Origin: Chitinophaga pinensis
GTDB lineage: Bacteria > Bacteroidota > Bacteroidia > Flavobacteriales_D > Crocinitomicaceae
Assembly: GCA_943324565.2 (NCBI GenBank)
Contig: CALPMC020000011.1
Location: forward strand, 1-47,675
DNA length: 47,675 nt
Direction of reading: 5' to 3'
The notes beneath the pieces were generated by a model. It was given only the letters and a program-made list of their open reading frames with translations, was not told the DNA's origin and searched no databases. Below, in pieces: positions 33,169 through 47,374 of the stretch. Within the stretch, counting starts at the first letter, position 1. Every line of letters starts with the position of its first letter. A program made the position numbers and the translations under genes.

Positions 33169-33903
33169 ATGGAGAAATGGCTAGAGAGAACAGCGTTATT
33201 ATTAAATGATAAAAAAATGCAACAATTAAAAAATGCACATGTTTTAATTGTTGGATTGGGAGGAATAGGTTCGTTTGCAGGTGAATTTATCGCTCGTGCA
33301 GGGATTGGAAAAATGACAATAATTGATGGAGATGTTTTTGATCCAACTAATAAAAATCGTCAATTGACAGCTTTAGACTCAACGATTGGAATCAATAAAG
33401 CAATTGTTTTGGCAGCGCGATTGAAAGATATAAATCCTAATTTAAAAATAAATGTTGTAGAAGAATTTGTACAGCCAGATCGTGTTTGGGCCTTGCTGGA
33501 AGAATTTCAACCAGATTACGTGATGGATTGCATCGACTCTGTTACGCCAAAACTAGAATGGATAAAAGTCTGTAAACGCAAGAAAATCAAAATAATAAGT
33601 CATTTGGGGGCAGGAGGGAAGATCGACCCATCCAAAGTGCAAGTGGCAAAATTAGAACATGCACACAATTGTAAATTAGGAGCACATATCAAGAAACGCT
33701 TGCGTGGTGAAAACATTACTTTAAAAGGAGTGAAGGCAGTTTTTTCAACAGAAATTCAAGATAAAGCCTCACTCAAAATGACCGATGGAACGAATTTCAA
33801 GAAATCATTTTATGGAACTATTAGTTATATGCCGGCACTTTTTGGTTTAATGGGTGCTGCAGAAGTGATTCGCTATTTAACGGAAGAATGGAAAGAGGCT
33901 TGA
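33169..33903 (+). CDS. tcdA: tRNA threonylcarbamoyladenosine dehydratase TcdA
   Basis: The 244-residue ThiF/E1-like enzyme has the nucleotide-binding GLGGIGSFAGEFIARAGIGKMTIIDGDVFDPTNKNRQ (about residues 29-65) and the TcdA/YgdL features WLERTALLLND at the start and AHNCKLGAHIKKRLRGENITLKGVKAVFSTE near the end. TcdA uses ATP to cyclise t6A to ct6A at position 37 of ANN-decoding tRNAs in the cytoplasm. The sulfur-acceptor cysteines of some relatives are absent, as expected for the dehydratase. Confidence 0.9.
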   Translation: MEKWLERTALLLNDKKMQQLKNAHVLIVGLGGIGSFAGEFIARAGIGKMTIIDGDVFDPTNKNRQLTALDSTIGINKAIVLAARLKDINPNLKINVVEEFVQPDRVWALLEEFQPDYVMDCIDSVTPKLEWIKVCKRKKIKIISHLGAGGKIDPSKVQVAKLEHAHNCKLGAHIKKRLRGENITLKGVKAVFSTEIQDKASLKMTDGTNFKKSFYGTISYMPALFGLMGAAEVIRYLTEEWKEA

Positions 33904-34749: not shown

Positions 34750-36786
34750 ATGCTTAAAAAGCTAATATATCTTTCTCTTTTTTTAAATTTTATTCCTGTT
34801 TTTTCTCAAAATGACCCATGTATAACAAGTGATAAAAAACTTATTAAATTGTTAGCAAACGCAATGAGTGAAGAAACTTTTGAAGAGAAAACGGCAAAAT
34901 TTGCTGAAGCAATGCAAAAGTTTCCTGATAATGCGGAGACTTATTTTTTGTATGCTAAATTATGTAAAAGTGAAGCTTCAATTCTTATGCGTGAGGAAAA
35001 AAACTATTCGAAAGGTGAAGCATTACAAAAAAAAGCTATTCCCTTCTATCAAAATACAGTTAAGAAATGTCCAAATTTTCATGCCGATTGCTATTATATT
35101 GTTGGTGTAACGCTTTTACAAAATGGTGATTTGAAAAATGCACTACCTTATTTTCAAAAATTTGTAGATTTCCCACAAGATGATTTTTCAAAATTGTCTG
35201 AGAATTACTTGCAACAAAAAAAAGAAATTGAATCAATTTTAGAGGACGTAGCATTTGAGAAAATAATGGTCGAAAATCCAGTTCCTTTTGTTCCGAAAAA
35301 AGTACAAATGGTCAGTTCAAACCTTGATGAATATTTTCCGATGATATCACCAGACAATGATTTGTTGTTTTTTACACGTAAAATTGACCGAAAAAATTTA
35401 GGTGACATTTCTTCGAATATTCGCGAGGAATTCAGTATTTCTTCAAGAGAAGATTCCAAAGGGCCTTTCACATCCGGCGATCCATTACCAAAACCATTTA
35501 ATGATGGTAGTTTTTTTAATTATGGAACAGCAACTCTCTCTGTTGATAATAAAGAAATGATTATTTGTGCTTGCAAAGCAGAAAAAGTTTACAATCAAGA
35601 TTACTTAAATTGTGATTTGTACACTACAACATATAGACGAACTGGAAAAGGAGGAAATGATTTTGAATGGACAACTTTGGTGAATATGGGACCTGCCATT
35701 AACACAAAAGATGGGTGGGAAGCACAACCTTCTTTGTCAGCCGATGGAACAATGTTGTTTTTTACATCCTTACGAAAAGGTTCACGAAATGACGATATTT
35801 TTATTTCGGAAAAACAAAAAGATGGCACTTGGAGCAAAGCAAAACCTTTTGATTTGATTAATACGGACGGAAAAGATAAGAGTCCATTTTTTCACCAAGA
35901 TGGAGAGACTTTGTACTTCGTTTCTAATTCTACAAAAAAACGAAAAGGTTTGGGAGGACTGGATATATTTTACATTCGTAAAGAAGGTGAAAAATGGACA
36001 GAACCTAAAAATATTGGTTATCCCATAAATTCGAAGGAAGATGAACTTGGATTGTTTGTGTCGACTAATGGAAAAGAAGCATACTATTCGAGCATGAAAG
36101 AAGGGGATTGGGATATTTATTCCTTTGATTTATATGAAGAGGCGCGACCACAGGAAGTAGTTATTTTGAAGGGTGAATTAGTTGATGATCAAGGAAAACC
36201 AATTCAAGGAGCAGAAGTTGAAATCACTTACAACGATACAGGAGAAAAAACACAGTTTAAGGTTAATGGTGATGATGGGAAATATGCAGCTGTTGTGAAA
36301 GTTTCTCAAAAACAAGATATTACAGTAAGTATCAACAAAGATGGATATGCTTATAATGCCAAAGTAATTGAAAAAGAAACACTAGTTAAAACAGATGCTT
36401 CTGCCGTAAAAACAGGAAAATTAAAAATAGATACGGTTGAAATAGGTAAAGCATTTAGTATTGATGATATTATTTTCGAGAGTGATTCTTACGCATTAAC
36501 AACCAAAAGTAAATACATCTTAAATGGTTTTTCAACTTATTTATTGAAAAATAGCCAACTAAAATTTGCAATTAATGGACACACGGATGATTTAGGAGAC
36601 GATGAAAAAAACCGTCAACTTTCTCAAAATCGTTCGGATGCTGTAAAAAAATATTTGGTAGAAAAAGGAATTGACGAAGGCCGATTAATTGCCAAAGGGT
36701 TTGGAGAAACGAAGCAAAAGTTTCCAAATACGAGCGAATTAAATCGTACAAAAAATCGAAGAACAGAATTTCAAGTTATTAAATAA
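34750..36786 (+). CDS. TPR / PD40 propeller / CarboxypepD-like / OmpA protein, PorE-like
   Basis: From the ATG at 34750 the protein is 678 aa with a signal peptide (MLKKLIYLSLFLNFIPVFSQ). An upstream TTG at 34633 adds 39 hydrophobic residues that look non-coding. In order there is a TPR-like helical region (about residues 30-165), WD40-like PD40 repeats (about 185-465, with DEYFPMISPDNDLLFFTRK, WEAQPSLSADGTMLFFTS and DKSPFFHQDGETLYFVSN), a carboxypeptidase-regulatory-like beta domain (VVILKGELVDDQGKPIQGAEVEI) and a C-terminal OmpA domain with NGHTDDLGDD...NRQLSQNRSDAVKKYL that should bind peptidoglycan. The same order is known for PorE of T9SS, but paralogues are common, so the assignment stays open. 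Confidence 0.88.
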   Translation: MLKKLIYLSLFLNFIPVFSQNDPCITSDKKLIKLLANAMSEETFEEKTAKFAEAMQKFPDNAETYFLYAKLCKSEASILMREEKNYSKGEALQKKAIPFYQNTVKKCPNFHADCYYIVGVTLLQNGDLKNALPYFQKFVDFPQDDFSKLSENYLQQKKEIESILEDVAFEKIMVENPVPFVPKKVQMVSSNLDEYFPMISPDNDLLFFTRKIDRKNLGDISSNIREEFSISSREDSKGPFTSGDPLPKPFNDGSFFNYGTATLSVDNKEMIICACKAEKVYNQDYLNCDLYTTTYRRTGKGGNDFEWTTLVNMGPAINTKDGWEAQPSLSADGTMLFFTSLRKGSRNDDIFISEKQKDGTWSKAKPFDLINTDGKDKSPFFHQDGETLYFVSNSTKKRKGLGGLDIFYIRKEGEKWTEPKNIGYPINSKEDELGLFVSTNGKEAYYSSMKEGDWDIYSFDLYEEARPQEVVILKGELVDDQGKPIQGAEVEITYNDTGEKTQFKVNGDDGKYAAVVKVSQKQDITVSINKDGYAYNAKVIEKETLVKTDASAVKTGKLKIDTVEIGKAFSIDDIIFESDSYALTTKSKYILNGFSTYLLKNSQLKFAINGHTDDLGDDEKNRQLSQNRSDAVKKYLVEKGIDEGRLIAKGFGETKQKFPNTSELNRTKNRRTEFQVIK

Positions 36787-38191: not shown

Positions 38192-38591
38192 GGGGTCGAC
38201 ATTGGATTTGACAGCGATAGCGGTAGTCAAGTGTCAGCATGCAGAGGGTTGTGGTGAACCTCTTAAATATCTTGTCACGAACAATAATTGACAATACGTC
38301 ATACGCACTTGCTGCTTAATTAGCTGAATGTTAATTGGCTTAATCTTTCCGAAGTATAGTAGGTTAGACAAGTACTTCCGATAAACTGCTGCTCATTCGG
38401 TTTATCAAACGGAGGTTCATCCCATTGGGCTAGTGAATGCGAGGTTACTAAGCATTTGCGAAATTCCAGTAGCTAAGTTGAAGGTTTGGGTGTTCTTGTC
38501 CGTCCTGCAATCGAAAACCAATCGAGAAATAAGCATGTAGAAAGCTTGAAAACTCGTCGTTTGGACGAGGGTTCGAACCCCTCCGACTCCA
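38192..38591 (+). ncRNA. ssrA: Transfer-messenger RNA (tmRNA)
   Basis: The 5' end GGGGTCGACATTGGATTTGACAG and the 3' end with T-arm GAGGG-TTCGAAC-CCCTC and acceptor strand CGACTCC are those of a one-piece tmRNA. GGGGTCG (38192-38198) pairs with CGACTCC (38584-38590) with one G-T. The tag frame ends D-N-T-S-Y-A-L-A-A followed by TAA (38290-38319); the exact resume codon is uncertain because in-frame codons continue upstream. The discriminator A is at 38591 and CCA is not encoded next to it (the genome reads ACTCCA), so CCA is likely added afterwards. tmRNA rescues stalled ribosomes with SmpB and marks the product for proteolysis. A terminator follows at 38602. Confidence 0.95.
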
Positions 38592-38601
38592 CTCCACAGG
38601 T

Positions 38602-38640
38602 AAGCACACCAAAATCGGTGTGCTTTTCTTTTTTTATTTT
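38602..38640 (+). terminator. Intrinsic terminator of ssrA
   Basis: AAGCACACC (38602-38610) pairs perfectly with GGTGTGCTT (38617-38625) around a 6-nt loop and is followed by TTCTTTTTTTATTTT. It sits 10 bases after the mature tmRNA end. Confidence 0.9.
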
Positions 38641-38646
38641 CGATAA

Positions 38647-39534
38647 TTAGTTCATTGGCATAAATCCCTCTGCAATCATCCATTTTTCGCGCATACGAAA
38701 AGCAGGAATCGTTTGCCTCTTGGCTTTATTGGCTGCAACGTTTGATTTGATACCACTTTGCTTTGCCCAAATTGAAAGTGGAATTATTTTTTTTGCAGTG
38801 AGGACAGTTATACGCTTATTCAATGATTCTTGCAATAGTAGCGCAAATAACTCCGTAAAACCTCCAGATTTCAACGTCGACTGGTACTGTGTAAACAGCG
38901 GATAGTACTCAGTATGTTTATTTTTATTTTGAATAATAATGGGAGGAAAGCCTAAATTCATTAACTGCAGATTTATAAGTACTCTCCCCATTCTTCCATT
39001 TCCGTCAACAAAAGGGTGAATGGTTTCAAACTCTGCGTGAAAATGCGCCACAGCATCTAAAAAATAACTGATTTTATTTTGGTTGTAATTATCAACTAGT
39101 TCTTGTATAAGTGTTGGAACAAACTGTGGATTTGCACCTAGGTGATTGCCAACACGCACCCATTCTTTGCCAACTCTAAAACGACCGGCAATATTGTCAT
39201 CAATGTCGGTGAGCAAAATTTTATGCATACTTAAGATGAGTTTGGTGTTTAGCATTTTTTTGTTTTTTTCAAGCAAGGACTCGGTCAGTTTAGCTAAGTT
39301 TTTGGCTTCATATACTTCACGAACAATTACTTTTCGCTCTAAACTGCCTCCTGCAAGAATTTTTTCTGTGTCCTCCAACGAAAGGGTTGAATTTTCAATC
39401 GCGTTTGAATTATAAACCATCTCCGGAATTTCAGCAAGGGTTATTTCCTTTAATACTGTCTCATTTCCTTTGGCCAAGTTTAAATATTGCTTGTTCAGTT
39501 CCTCTATTCTATCTTTTGTAGTTTGGTTGATCAT
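38647..39534 (-). CDS. Fic family protein (class II, N-terminal inhibitory helix)
   Basis: The 295-residue protein has the full Fic motif HPFVDGNGRMGR (His173 to Arg184), so AMP transfer (or related UMP/phosphocholine transfer) to a hydroxyl is expected. An inhibitory motif (S/T)xxxE(G/N) is visible upstream as SNAIEN (Ser43-Asn48), which makes it a class II, self-inhibited enzyme. A C-terminal region (LSIWAKQSGIKSNVAANKAKRQTIPAFRMREKWMIAEGF) resembles a small HTH or excisionase-like adaptor found in many Fic proteins. The target is unknown. It lies directly behind the tmRNA terminator, convergent to ssrA. Confidence 0.93.
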   Translation of the reverse strand: MINQTTKDRIEELNKQYLNLAKGNETVLKEITLAEIPEMVYNSNAIENSTLSLEDTEKILAGGSLERKVIVREVYEAKNLAKLTESLLEKNKKMLNTKLILSMHKILLTDIDDNIAGRFRVGKEWVRVGNHLGANPQFVPTLIQELVDNYNQNKISYFLDAVAHFHAEFETIHPFVDGNGRMGRVLINLQLMNLGFPPIIIQNKNKHTEYYPLFTQYQSTLKSGGFTELFALLLQESLNKRITVLTAKKIIPLSIWAKQSGIKSNVAANKAKRQTIPAFRMREKWMIAEGFMPMN

Positions 39535-40119
39535 TTTATTACCTAATTATTCATCGTGAAAACATATTCAAATATACCATTTTTCACGGTAAATTGGTGC
39601 TTTAAATTATAAATTTGAAGGCTTATTTTTTGATGACTTTATAATTTCAGAATATAAATGGATAAATTATTATCAAATCCAACCGCTCATTTCTTTTGCA
39701 AAATCTTAGAAAAAAGTATACGTTTTTTGAATTTTATTTAGTCTCAAAAATCGTTTTATAAAGCATACTCAATTTGTTCAAATCCTCCAAAAAGGGGTTC
39801 GAAAAAATGTCAGTTAAGTCCACATTTAACTAAGGCCCTTTTGAAAGAAAGTGCTTTTTTTTTATGAATAAAAATAATCATTTGTAAAATGGATAAAGAG
39901 ATAAAGCATCATGCAAATTAAGGATGTCAAATTTTCCTTTTCGATATGATGGAGTTATTGATAAAGAGATAAACCTTCAGACTTAATAAGCTTAAAAAAG
40001 TAATTCTAACTAGATTATATCTTTTGTTTAACTCGATAGAAAGATATAATTTTTTAATAATGTTTACTAATTTACCGAAATAAAAAATTAAATTTAATCT
40101 CTAACCTTAAATACCGATT
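39535..40119. other. Gap containing copy A of a direct repeat
   Basis: This 585-base region between the divergent Fic and YHYH genes has no intact gene. It carries repeat copy A (39731-39806) and two copies of GATAAAGAGATAAA (39892-39905 and 39960-39973). On the minus strand copy A can be read as part of a 32-residue frame containing NPFLEDLNKLSMLYKTI, possibly the tail of a lost gene that I cannot name. Confidence 0.55.
39731..39806. repeat. Direct repeat, copy A (upstream of the YHYH gene)
   Basis: These 76 bases match 41491-41565 at about 66 positions with one gap. The shared core reads AAGCATACTCAATTTGTT followed by AAAGGGGTT further on. The two copies are in the same orientation and bracket one gene. 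Confidence 0.85.
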
Positions 40120-41463
40120 ATGAAAAATTTCATTTTGCTTTTATTTTCAGTCTCTTATTTTTCAATTAATTACGCACAACAGGTAGTTCCTGCCATTTCT
40201 TCTTGGTTGATTAATACAACTGGAGTAACAGGTAAACATTATTTAGCAGGTAATTCTACGCCAATTATAGATGCAGAATTAGCTAACATTTCAACAGTAC
40301 AGTTTTCATCTAATTGGGTATACGTTACTACACAAGGAATTCCAGCTTATGTCACTGGGCCATTTACTGCAAATCCAAATTCTGTAATTACTCCAACCAA
40401 TACAATATATCAAATCCCATTAAATCCAGTTAAAAATAATGGTGTATTAACAAATACTGGAGCTGGTAACATTGGCGTATTTAAAAATGGTGTTGGTTTA
40501 TTTAGTTACGGTGATGGTTTTGCATATAATCCAGCAACTAATTCTGATGCACCTACGCCAAACGGGGTATGGAGGAGAGATGCTGTCAAAGCAGAAATAA
40601 ATGGTTTTGATTGTTCAAAAGCGCATCCTGCAGCACAAGGAAATTATCACCATCATCAAAATCCAAGCGCCTTTAATTTGGATTTGGTTGAGCTTTCTTC
40701 TATTTGCAATTTATACACCTCAGATGGTTTGTATGTAATAAATCCAAATGAGCATTCCCCAATTTTAGGTTATTCATATGATGGATTCCCAATATATGGC
40801 GCTTATGCTTTTGCAGACACAGTAGGTGGTGGTGGTATAGTTCGAATGAAATCAAGTTATAGCTTGAGAAATATTTCAGTTAGAACTCATTACGCTAATG
40901 GAACGGATGTTGTAGATGGACCTCCGATTAGTTCGACATTCCCATTAGGCTGGTACCGCGAAGATTATGAATATATCGATCACCCATTAGACATGACCTA
41001 CTTAGATGAGCATAATGGTCGTTTTTGTGTTACTCCTGAATATCCAAATGGCATATATTGTTACTTCACAACTGTTGATGAAAATCACAATTCATATTAT
41101 CCCTATTCTATAGGTCCAACTTATTATGGCGTAAAGAGTGGTGGTAAAGTAATTACAATCACTGAAGTAACTGAGACCTATAATCCGCCAGTCCAAACAA
41201 TTTTGGAACAAATGAAAAACGTTGAAATCAAGGTTTATCCAAATCCAAGTCAAGATATTATTGCTATTCAGTCAGCAGAAATTCTTAAGCTCGATATGCA
41301 AGCAGATCTTATAGATGCTAAAGGAAAAATTGTCGAGTCTAAATCATTTCCACAAGGAACATCGATTTGTTATTTTGACACTTCCATACTTTATAGTGGT
41401 CAATACATAATTAGAATTCATAATTCAGTTGAACAAAGGGTTTTTAAAATTGTGTTGCAATAG
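40120..41463 (+). CDS. YHYH-domain protein with T9SS sorting domain
   Basis: The 447-residue protein has a signal peptide (MKNFILLLFSVSYFSINYAQ). A YHYH domain includes GVWRRDAV, HPAAQGNYHHHQNP (the name motif is here YHHH, 176-179) and GYSYDGFPIYGAY. A C-terminal T9SS sorting domain follows (EIKVYPNPSQDIIAIQSAEI...GQYIIRIHNSVEQRVFKIVLQ, about residues 370-447). It should be exported to the surface. The role of YHYH proteins is not known; the histidine cluster suggests metal binding. It is flanked by two 75-base direct repeats. Confidence 0.88.
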   Translation: MKNFILLLFSVSYFSINYAQQVVPAISSWLINTTGVTGKHYLAGNSTPIIDAELANISTVQFSSNWVYVTTQGIPAYVTGPFTANPNSVITPTNTIYQIPLNPVKNNGVLTNTGAGNIGVFKNGVGLFSYGDGFAYNPATNSDAPTPNGVWRRDAVKAEINGFDCSKAHPAAQGNYHHHQNPSAFNLDLVELSSICNLYTSDGLYVINPNEHSPILGYSYDGFPIYGAYAFADTVGGGGIVRMKSSYSLRNISVRTHYANGTDVVDGPPISSTFPLGWYREDYEYIDHPLDMTYLDEHNGRFCVTPEYPNGIYCYFTTVDENHNSYYPYSIGPTYYGVKSGGKVITITEVTETYNPPVQTILEQMKNVEIKVYPNPSQDIIAIQSAEILKLDMQADLIDAKGKIVESKSFPQGTSICYFDTSILYSGQYIIRIHNSVEQRVFKIVLQ

Positions 41464-41490
41464 TCATAGTACCGAACTCGCAATATTTGG

Positions 41491-41565
41491 ATTCTATTTA
41501 CTCTCTTAAATCGTTTTCTAAAGCATACTCAATTTGTTTAAATCTTCTATAAAGGGGTTGAAAAA
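41491..41565. repeat. Direct repeat, copy B (downstream of the YHYH gene)
   Basis: These 75 bases are the partner of 39731-39806. On the minus strand the related frame reads NPFIEDLNKLSML and then stops (TAG where copy A has TAT), so it is decayed relative to copy A. It begins 28 bases after the YHYH stop codon. The rest of 41464-41759 is AT-rich with no gene seen. Confidence 0.85.
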
Positions 41566-44801: not shown

Positions 44802-44896
44802 ATTTGGGATAGAACATAATTAATTTCATTGTTAAAGTATTTAAACACCCTTATCAACAAATAGCGTTAAGTTTAATTAATTGTTTAAATTTGAAT

Positions 44897-45541
44897 ATGA
44901 AAAATCTATTGCTATTATTTGTTTTGATTCCAACTTATTTTTTCTCACAAGGAACTTATCAACTAGCTGTACTCAAGTATAATGGTGGAGGAGATTATTA
45001 TGCTAATCCAACAGCCTTGCCTAATTTAATCACATTCTGTAATCAAAATTTAGGTACCAACATTTCGAAAGATGTTCCTTATGTGGAAGTAGGGAGTAAA
45101 GATATTTTTCTTTATCCAATGCTTCACATGACAGGTCATGGTAACGTTGTTTTTTCTAAAGTGGAAGCTGAGAATTTAAGAAATTATCTTTTGGCTGGTG
45201 GTTTTTTACATATAGATGATAATTATGGTATGGATGAATTTATTCGGGTGGAGCTCAAGAAAGTTTTTCCAAATAGCAAATTAGTAGAGTTACCAGGCGA
45301 ACACCCTGTTTTTAATCAGAAATTTAAATTCAATGGCTTGCCAAAAATTCATGAACACGATAACAAACGTCCACAAGCTTTTGGAATTATTGAAAAAGGA
45401 AGACTTCTATGTCTATACACCTATGAAACTGATCTTAGCGATGGATGGGAAGACCCCCAAGTTCACAACGATACACCAGAAAAAAGAAAGCAAGCACTAC
45501 AAATGGGAGCAAACATTTTGATGTATGCTTTTATGAAGTAA
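44897..45541 (+). CDS. DUF4159 family exported protein
   Basis: From the ATG at 44897 the protein is 214 aa with a signal peptide (MKNLLLLFVLIPTYFFSQ). It contains the DUF4159 pattern: YNGGGDYYANPTALPNLITFCNQNL, YPMLHMTGHGNV, NLRNYLLAGGFLHIDDNYG and GEHPVFNQKFKFNGLPKIHEHD. The fold resembles a ThuA/glutamine-amidotransferase-like domain. It is periplasmic by inference and its function is unknown. A TTG six bases upstream is an alternative start but breaks the usual signal peptide. It is followed after 25 bases by a GNAT gene. Confidence 0.9.
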   Translation: MKNLLLLFVLIPTYFFSQGTYQLAVLKYNGGGDYYANPTALPNLITFCNQNLGTNISKDVPYVEVGSKDIFLYPMLHMTGHGNVVFSKVEAENLRNYLLAGGFLHIDDNYGMDEFIRVELKKVFPNSKLVELPGEHPVFNQKFKFNGLPKIHEHDNKRPQAFGIIEKGRLLCLYTYETDLSDGWEDPQVHNDTPEKRKQALQMGANILMYAFMK

Positions 45542-45566
45542 TATTTATAAAAACTATCTTTGAGCT

Positions 45567-46007
45567 ATGCTTACAGTTAGAGAATTAGTTGATAAAGATG
45601 AAATGTTAAAATACATTCACGTCTTAAATGATTTATATCCTGCATTGACTTTAGAACAATATTCCAAAGAATTGGATGATATGTTACCTCACAATTACGG
45701 TCAAGTCGGTGTTTTTGAAGAAGATGAATGCCTAGGAATCAGTGGATTTTGGATAGGCAACAAATTGTGGTGCGGGAAGTACTTGGAGTTAGATAATATC
45801 GTTGTTTCTACAATGCATCGAAGTAAAGGTGTTGGGAAATTAATTTTTGATTTTTTAGCAAAAAAAGCACAAGAACACGAGTGTACAATGATGGCTTTAG
45901 ATTCATATACCTCTAATTTTAAAGCACATAAATTTTTCTATAACGAAGGTTTTGCCCCTAGAGGCTTTCATTTTATAAATATATTGAAACCAGATGGGGT
46001 GAGATAG
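45567..46007 (+). CDS. GNAT family N-acetyltransferase
   Basis: The 146-residue protein has the GNAT core: VFEEDECLGISGFWIGNKLWCGKYLELDNIVVSTMHRSKGVGKLIFDFLAKKAQEHECTMMALDSYTSNFKAHKFFYNEGFAPRGFHF. The R/Q-x-x-G-x-G/A acetyl-CoA loop appears as RSKGVG. The acceptor substrate is unknown. It lies 25 bases after DUF4159 and may share its transcript. Confidence 0.88.
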   Translation: MLTVRELVDKDEMLKYIHVLNDLYPALTLEQYSKELDDMLPHNYGQVGVFEEDECLGISGFWIGNKLWCGKYLELDNIVVSTMHRSKGVGKLIFDFLAKKAQEHECTMMALDSYTSNFKAHKFFYNEGFAPRGFHFINILKPDGVR

Positions 46008-46126
46008 TATAGATTCTACTGTTTTAGATAAAATTTTCAACCCAGTTTAAATATTAACTTATTGATAAGAAAGGTAAATCAAAGAACTTACTAAATTTAT
46101 AGTGTCTTTAACAAAAATTATATCCT

Positions 46127-47374
46127 ATGGAAGAATACGGTAAAATACTTTTGTTTGCAATGCCTGCATTTTTAATTTTTGTACTATCAGAAAAGATTTA
46201 TGGAATATGGAAAGGTAAAGATTATACGCCTTTTGATGATGCGATTTCAAGTTTGAGTTCTGGGATGAGTAATGTAGTAAAAGATGTTTTAGGATTATCA
46301 ATTAATATTATAAGTTACGCTTGGTTAGTGGAGCACATCGCAATAATTCAAATTAAAGAAACGGTTTTATTGTATACAATTGCCTTCATCGTTATTGATT
46401 TTTATGGTTATTGGTCGCATCGCTTTGATCACAAAATTAATATTTTTTGGAACGAACATGCAATCCATCACAGTAGTGAAGAATTTAATTTAGCATGTGC
46501 TTTACGTCAGCCTGTTTCTGGGATTTTGAAAGTGTTTAACTTTCTATTGATTCCAGCAGCATTAGTTGGAGTGCCAGTAGAAATCATTTCAATTGTTTTG
46601 CCTTTGCATTTATTTCTGCAGTTTTGGTATCATACACGTCATATTGGAAAATTAGGTTTTTTGGAATATATAATCGTAACACCTTCTCATCATCGAGTTC
46701 ATCACGCTATGAATAAAGAATATATGGATAAAAACTTGGGTCAAATTTTTATTTTTTGGGATAAACTATTTGGAACATTTCAAGTAGAATTAGATGAAGT
46801 TCCGCCGATATATGGAATTACTCGACCTTCAAAAACATGGAACCCTTTCATTATTAATTTTCAACATTTTTATTTAATTGTAAAAGACGCATGGAATGCT
46901 CCAAGAATTATAGATAAATTTCGAGTTTGGTTTATGCCAACAGGTTGGAGACCAGAAGGATTTGAGGAGAAGTATCCGGTAGAAAAAATTAATGAAGCTC
47001 ATAACTTTAAAAAGTATAAAACAGAACTTCCAAAACCTTTATTTATCTGGAGTATTGTTCAATTATTTGCAACATTGACATTCATTTCTCACTTGTTTTC
47101 TTCCATCGGGGCTATAAAAATTCCAGGTGTTTTTATCTATGGCTTTTACATTCTGTTCACAATTTATTGTTTCACCGATTTAATGGACAGAAATCGTTGG
47201 AATTGGATACTTGAATTAATACGATTTGGTTTTGTAATTGGATTCTTTTTTGCCACACAATCTTGGTTTGGACTTGGGAATTTAGTTTTTGCAGGAGTAA
47301 TTATTTACCAAGTAGTTTCACTTTTGTTTAGTTTTAAATACAGTCAAGTTAATACGAATACAGTGCTTGGTTAA
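46127..47374 (+). CDS. Sterol desaturase / fatty acid hydroxylase family membrane protein
   Basis: The 415-residue protein has the di-iron histidine boxes of the family: HRFDH (98-102), HAIHH (111-115) and HHRVHH (188-193). There are membrane helices around residues 5-22, 55-90 and 130-165, and further helices toward the C-terminus (about 305-410). The long C-terminal membrane part makes it similar to alkylglycerol monooxygenase-like members rather than short ERG3-type ones. It would hydroxylate a lipid in the inner membrane; the substrate cannot be told from sequence. Confidence 0.9.
   Translation: MEEYGKILLFAMPAFLIFVLSEKIYGIWKGKDYTPFDDAISSLSSGMSNVVKDVLGLSINIISYAWLVEHIAIIQIKETVLLYTIAFIVIDFYGYWSHRFDHKINIFWNEHAIHHSSEEFNLACALRQPVSGILKVFNFLLIPAALVGVPVEIISIVLPLHLFLQFWYHTRHIGKLGFLEYIIVTPSHHRVHHAMNKEYMDKNLGQIFIFWDKLFGTFQVELDEVPPIYGITRPSKTWNPFIINFQHFYLIVKDAWNAPRIIDKFRVWFMPTGWRPEGFEEKYPVEKINEAHNFKKYKTELPKPLFIWSIVQLFATLTFISHLFSSIGAIKIPGVFIYGFYILFTIYCFTDLMDRNRWNWILELIRFGFVIGFFFATQSWFGLGNLVFAGVIIYQVVSLLFSFKYSQVNTNTVLG

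Follow-up and report, generated by a model that had tools for sequence, protein, structure and literature searches.

SCC elements occupy a site at the 3′ end of a gene (rlmH) and occur as stacked elements with and without a recombinase; integrons line up units of one or two genes each, which are often toxin-antitoxin-like, and every unit has a site at one end. Features of SCC are described in part in the study by McMurdie et al. 2011 of the tandem ssrA islands of Dehalococcoides (PMC3146451). According to that study, the CcrB-like recombinase DsiB of these islands has a 3′ end that always overlaps attL, its gene lacks a stop of its own inside the island, and the integration module is present in 16 of 31 islands; DsiB was suggested to be fully functional only on the circle or beside an island carrying the needed 3′ fragment (PMC3146451). 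For serine integrases, a structure-based model places the zinc domains 5 bp nearer the crossover in attB than in attP (PMC3783163).

The window (the whole stretch of 47,675 nucleotides analysed here) carries a tmRNA gene followed by two small units, in the order tmRNA, Fic cassette, core A, YHYH cassette, and decayed core B (Table 1). Two repeats, at 39726–39805 and 41486–41565, are identical at 68 of 80 bases without gaps (second copy, E 3.9e-20), so the direct repeats reported in an earlier note on this DNA are real, at 85% over 80 bp here vs. the approximately 88% over 75 bp claimed there. As that note had also recognized, the minus strand of each copy spells the tail of the same protein: copy A is open from 39823 to 39734, and copy B reads FFNPFIEDLNKLSML, stop, KTI, stop, ESK, stop, the interruptions indicating that copy B has decayed. 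A search of the assembly (179 contigs, 3.17 Mb) for more copies, which the note had proposed, returned just these two at E ≤ 0.001. Other genomes carry related copies, so the repeat is not confined to this locus. Core A matched the core profile with an E of 1.2e-17, being itself among the profile's sequences, and core B matched with an E of 0.00084 over positions 19–61, leaving the first 18 positions, GTGG included, unmatched.

Table 1. Coordinates of the tmRNA gene and the two adjoining cassettes in the window, with the roles proposed for them.
Feature	Position	Strand	Evidence or remark
tmRNA gene, proposed insertion target at its 3′ end	38192..38592	+	Rfam RF00023, ARAGORN
Hairpin stretch, tmRNA side of Fic cassette	38593..38635	-	Closely like the 3′ end of the G045 recombinase gene beside tmRNA
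Fic/DOC family gene, first-cassette cargo	38647..39534	-	Pfam PF02661, E 1e-20
Open tail VDLTDIFSNPFLEDLNKLSMLYKTIFETK, then stop	39734..39823	-	Read as probable native C-terminus of a large serine recombinase; coding test
Core A (putative attR-type half-site)	39763..39823	-	GTGG 39820-39823; T-loop-like motif TTCGAACCCC 39794-39803
Stretch past core A crossover	39824..39868	.	Read as putative left end of YHYH cassette, from its place
YHYH-domain protein with T9SS C-terminal sorting domain, second-cassette cargo	40120..41463	+	Pfam PF14240, PF18962
Core B (putative decayed attR-type half-site)	41486..41565	-	Tail with stops

The tmRNA ends with CTCCGACTCCAC at 38581–38592, and the complement of the putative crossover, GTGG, lies on the minus strand at 38589–38592. 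From side-by-side tmRNA 3′ flanks of the window and locus L144, we infer that the hairpin stretch next to the tmRNA is a remnant of a recombinase 3′ end on the attL side. Homologues of the Fic cassette were found in four genomes (G003, G009, G043, and G048); the alignment with G003 is 88.4% identical over 38621–39823 and ends exactly at 39823. The second cargo gene matches the YHYH and Por_Secre_tail families and has a second relative elsewhere in the same genome (56% identical). No large serine recombinase (LSR) was found in the window, and the genome has a single recombinase match, which is distant (26% identity) and beside tRNA-Met. No empty site for the window cassettes was found in the stretches of G034, G003, and G005, where the flanking genes are rearranged. 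The genes that flank the array in the window (33169–33903 and 44891–47374), which we read as ThiF-like or DUF4159-like, for example, have another arrangement in the near relatives G003 and G034, indicating that the region has been rearranged.

Complete elements in related genomes suggested what the lost protein was. In G199, a core at 35707 and an LSR gene at 59760–61253 lie on the same 61.5 kb contig, spanning approximately 25.6 kb from end to end, and rejoining the two ends in silico carried the recombinase in frame into the tail, finishing with ...LSCGVESTDLFSNPFLEDLERLGNVLK and a stop. The cargo of this element includes HsdM and a PLD-domain protein among others; the neighbour upstream of the LSR had no Pfam or NCBIfam match in the part of the element scanned. 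The LSR faces a stretch like a tRNA 3′ end, in which ARAGORN found no whole tRNA. Genome G158 has HsdR, HsdM, and HsdS between a core and a recombinase truncated near residue 434, and contig 16 of G045 displays an LSR C-terminal remnant naturally fused in frame to the tail. The rejoined frame of G199 and the natural fusion of G045 together argue that the lost protein is the recombinase and that the repeat is the half of attP displaced to the far end on integration. The tail would then be the native C-terminus of the LSR, which integration moves to the unit's other end. The earlier note was thus right that one protein underlies both copies, and its identity is now corrected to a large serine recombinase. 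A GIY-YIG nuclease considered as the source of the tail was dropped after the recombinase had been found. Searches for tail matches in plasmids and for the exact core in viral contigs both returned none.

Four relatives (G045, G025, G038, and G044) hold an LSR gene antisense against the tmRNA, with no core found at these loci. The LSR frame at all four crosses the hairpin into the tmRNA antisense, reading LSCGVESEGFEPSSK... in G045. This G045 LSR has three domains above cut-off: Resolvase (PF00239, E 7.9e-21), Recombinase (PF07508, 2e-11), and zinc ribbon (PF13408, 1.7e-5). Its nearest NCBIfam models are XisF and CcrB, both far under cut-off (for CcrB, E 2e-28 and 99.3 bits vs. a cut-off of 900); among solved structures, the chains nearest to it are those of a resolvase-family recombinase and the TP901-1 integrase, over the catalytic domain only. 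LSR matches at E ≤ 1e-20 were present in 28 of 100 relatives. An RNA gene is found at 28 of the 30 LSR loci returned, tmRNA at 9 and tRNA at 19 (Met 6, Arg 4, Leu 3, Gln 2, and Lys, Glu, His, and Val 1 each), and the recombinase frame enters the tRNA or tmRNA in 27 of the 30; with a fragment of G158, tRNA-Phe joins the list. Of 31 junctions, 13 have TGG in phase 1 of the LSR frame, 6 in phase 0, and 2 in phase 2, with 10 unassigned, and a fixed phase is claimed only for the G045-like members beside tmRNA or tRNA-Phe.

Taken together, the repeats of the window, tail included, are very likely attR half-sites of elements that carry a CcrB-like LSR and integrate into tmRNA and tRNA genes at the 3′ end; our confidence was slightly lowered by a negative spacing test, given below, and by the lack of a whole tRNA at G199. 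In the circular element, attP would lie inside the 3′ end of the LSR gene, whose tail would be of the type ...VESTDLFSNPFLEDLERLGNVLK followed by a stop. At GTGG, which is complementary to the CCAC that ends the tRNA, crossover would join the LSR gene to the tRNA antisense and alter the LSR C-terminus, and the tail-coding half of attP would go to the opposite end of the element, as the repeat in the window. Repeated insertion at one tmRNA would stack tandem units, each closed by a core. The Fic and YHYH cassettes, with core-type ends and no LSR, would be non-autonomous or deletion derivatives, and both were probably moved in trans by an LSR since lost. The recombination reaction, movement in trans, excision, and any function of the tail swap are inferred elements of this scheme. 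The earlier note had proposed that the YHYH gene was acquired by recombination or is a decayed duplication, and might be excisable. The first proposal holds insofar as the unit has recombination-type borders; the tail is part of an attachment site and no residue of a duplicated gene. Beyond the coordinates given in that note, the tmRNA at 38192–38592 and the Fic gene are involved as well. Since copy B has lost its crossover end, it is doubtful that the YHYH unit could still be excised precisely, and it may now be stuck, given the decay of core B, the lack of a recombinase in the window, and the distance of the only one in the genome.

The repeats belong to a family of sites of related Flavobacteriales. 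When up to 3 mismatches were allowed, a 23-base core pattern hit 18 places in 12 of 100 genomes, among them the genome of the window; the reversed pattern, used as a control, matched 4 places, so some of the weak core-pattern matches are chance. The exact 20-base core pattern gave 17 stretches in 84,980 species genomes, which came from MAGs under several Bacteroidetes titles and from two Mucilaginibacter genomes. Loci L068, L078, and L076 carry the core in two Mucilaginibacter genomes and a Bacteroidetes MAG; their left part differs, the tail as read is NPFLEDLRLLAA(S/C) and a stop, and these genomes have recombinases of approximately 41% identity. At several loci, a few kilobases and few genes separate the core from the 3′ end of tmRNA or tRNA-Phe. 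Pfam names among the cargo include HepT-like, nucleotidyltransferase, zeta toxin, AbiEii, GIY-YIG, Fib_succ_major, and AAA_14 with DUF4143; a mobile mystery protein A/B pair adjoins another core on a short contig in which no tRNA was found. One array, in G009, comprises tmRNA, a zeta-like gene, a core, Fic, a weaker core, a HepT pair, and a core. The sequence right after the tmRNA is unlike in most of the 39 tmRNA loci compared, including the window.

The small size of these units could also be a consequence of loss. Whole LSR elements may have been inserted serially at the tmRNA and then lost the recombinase and most of their cargo, leaving the Fic and YHYH units as leftovers, with the attachment-site reading unchanged; we consider this a serious rival, if on balance somewhat improbable. 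It gains from the lack of a recombinase in the window, from the decay of core B, from the likeness of the left end of the Fic cassette to an LSR 3′-end remnant, and from the existence of complete elements with type I restriction genes. Similar small cassettes are nevertheless found in several genomes, where their order varies and the cores alongside them differ. Protein identities point both ways: Fic is 85.6–86.3% identical in G009, G043, and G048 vs. 75–79% for a chromosomal protein, a modest gap measured with one yardstick, whereas its 88% identity to G003 is not above that of the chromosomal protein (92%). This comparison hints at movement for the first three genomes and gives no such hint for G003.

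To return to the reading of the cores as attR half-sites, homologous pairs that span a core offered a view of where the cassettes end. With default BLAST scoring, 13 of 19 pairs begin at −20 to −24 relative to CGAACCCC, and 9 of those 13 begin at −22, the first G of GTGG; among the remainder, four pairs extend further and two end short. Permissive scoring stopped 12 of 34 pairs at −20 to −24, and many others continued at 60–75% identity. At the level of sequence comparison, the core family, its anatomy, the in-frame joint, and GTGG borders in most cassette pairs were demonstrated. What most cores have in common with the tmRNA is GTGG, a few bases, and a shifted T-loop-like motif, with no long direct repeat; one G158 core holds 15 bases of the tmRNA end. 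Of 29 cores, 21 have 16 bases from TGG to TTCGA, vs. 11 in the window tmRNA, and this 5-bp offset of core against tmRNA matches the one modelled for attP against attB (PMC3783163). A script run on 31 recombinase/RNA junctions put the TGG-to-T-loop distance at 11 for 15 junctions and at other values for 11, partly because it anchored on another TGG; for the remaining 5 it gave none. Among 21 regions that lie upstream of 15 LSR loci from other groups (12 genomes), none has the 16-base spacing, which is therefore claimed for the present core family only. In that other-group set without G069, genome G062 has displaced ends of tRNA-Val (17 bases) and tRNA-His (16 bases). L235 holds 16 bases equal to the 3′ end of the targeted tRNA-His, approximately 29 kb upstream of the recombinase, and L236 holds 17 bases equal to that of the targeted tRNA-Val, approximately 14 kb upstream, which fits displaced tRNA ends.

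A further rival is that ordinary tyrosine integrases left the cores behind as displaced ends, or that the cores are attC sites of integron type, with the coding look of the tail a coincidence. The 3′ ends of tRNA and tmRNA genes are classic targets of tyrosine integrases (PMC4383910). Rows of units with one or two genes are reminiscent of integrons, G003 and G009 contain displaced stretches of tmRNA end that lack the tail, and one protein, at L069, looks by eye like a tyrosine recombinase. Against these points, the element for which both ends are available has an LSR as its recombinase, the tail is in frame with the LSR, and most cores share just GTGG and the shifted T-loop-like motif with the tmRNA, making this explanation very unlikely.

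The tmRNA site itself has further occupants. At six loci (L137, L147, L151, L152, L155, and L160) the first ~150 bases past the tmRNA hold a different repeated element, which begins with TCTGAT, finishes near TCCACTGCACGTTAGT, and has partly inverted ends; another mobile family may have its end here. Displaced tmRNA 3′ ends (GTGGAGTCGGAGGGG and variants) without the tail lie between cassettes at L052 (10100–10520) and L051 (9740–10000), so the tmRNA site seems to serve elements of more than one kind.

The coding nature of the tail was evaluated from the synonymous share of its changes. In subfamily A, 13 of 27 distinct changes are synonymous vs. 6.7 expected (reached in 25 of 20000 draws), and in subfamily B, 13 of 26 vs. 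8.2 expected (292 of 20000 draws); these sets comprise 7 and 6 hand-picked cores, with 6 distinct sequences each, and the subfamily B stretch takes in the stop and one codon beyond. The pooled test was weak, with 19 of 60 changes synonymous vs. 14.9 expected (565 of 5000 draws), and covered 24 of 29 cores, five having been excluded beforehand for frame shifts or low similarity. The null models of the pooled and subfamily tests ignore relatedness. A tblastn search of 199 genomes with the consensus tail gave 16 matches in 12 genomes, all in open frames of only 24–86 aa. A plain tandem duplication or transposition remnant, in which the repeats are pieces of one ordinary decayed gene, would account for one genome with two similar copies, one of them with stops, but is extremely improbable, given a tail joined to no long frame in the 199 genomes and cores that adjoin unrelated genes, often near tRNA or tmRNA ends.

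If the cores are LSR half-sites, as we favour, the answer suggested by the core family is that the missing 3′ piece of the recombinase is the core at each unit's other end. The family provides candidate attP and attB sequences for the recombinase group beside tmRNA and nine tRNA types, and a C-terminal switch driven by integration becomes directly testable. If true, the scheme would account for the varied sequence after the tmRNA among members of the window's genus. A wider and tentative reading, which we consider rather unlikely, is that of an integron counterpart built on a serine recombinase: small Fic, toxin-antitoxin-like, and other cassettes would be mobilized in trans and pile up at the ends of tmRNA and tRNA genes. 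The LSR C-terminus would act as a built-in sensor: the native tail would be available only while the element is a circle or lies behind the core of another unit, and integration itself would thereby switch the activity or direction of the enzyme.

No description of a tail-coding attR or of such cassettes in Bacteroidota was found in searches of open-licence PMC papers. Compared with integrons, the enzyme here is of the serine type and the anchor is a tRNA or tmRNA end. The SCC elements with CcrA/CcrB belong to the same broad serine recombinase family; the target here is tmRNA or tRNA instead, and the CcrB score is 99 against a cut-off of 900. As in the serine integrase attP/attB sites of Rutherford et al. 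2013 (PMC3783163), there is a 5-bp shift of the zinc-domain motif and a very short crossover; unlike in those systems, the motif is tRNA T-loop sequence and attP lies within the coding region of the recombinase. Integration-dependent immunity in mycobacteriophages likewise has attP in a gene whose encoded C-terminus is altered by integration, the gene being the phage repressor in that case and the recombinase itself in ours, where a regulatory effect is putative.

The family is kin to the Dehalococcoides ssrA islands, its closest precedent, and differs from them in the tail-coding attR. Shared with the islands (PMC3146451) are a serine recombinase antisense beside the tmRNA, a 3′ end over the att site, and tandem units; the recombinase is seen at such loci in relatives and is absent from the window. 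In that study (PMC3146451), the far end of an island is a 20-bp ssrA repeat, whereas most cores here have little beyond GTGG in common with the tmRNA and contain a tail-coding stretch, and the islands have a second, small serine recombinase, DsiA. Unlike the islands as described there (PMC3146451), the present family hits many tRNA types, can form units of one or two genes, and occurs in a different phylum. Set against that study, the family appears to display the missing 3′ fragment of the type proposed for DsiB.
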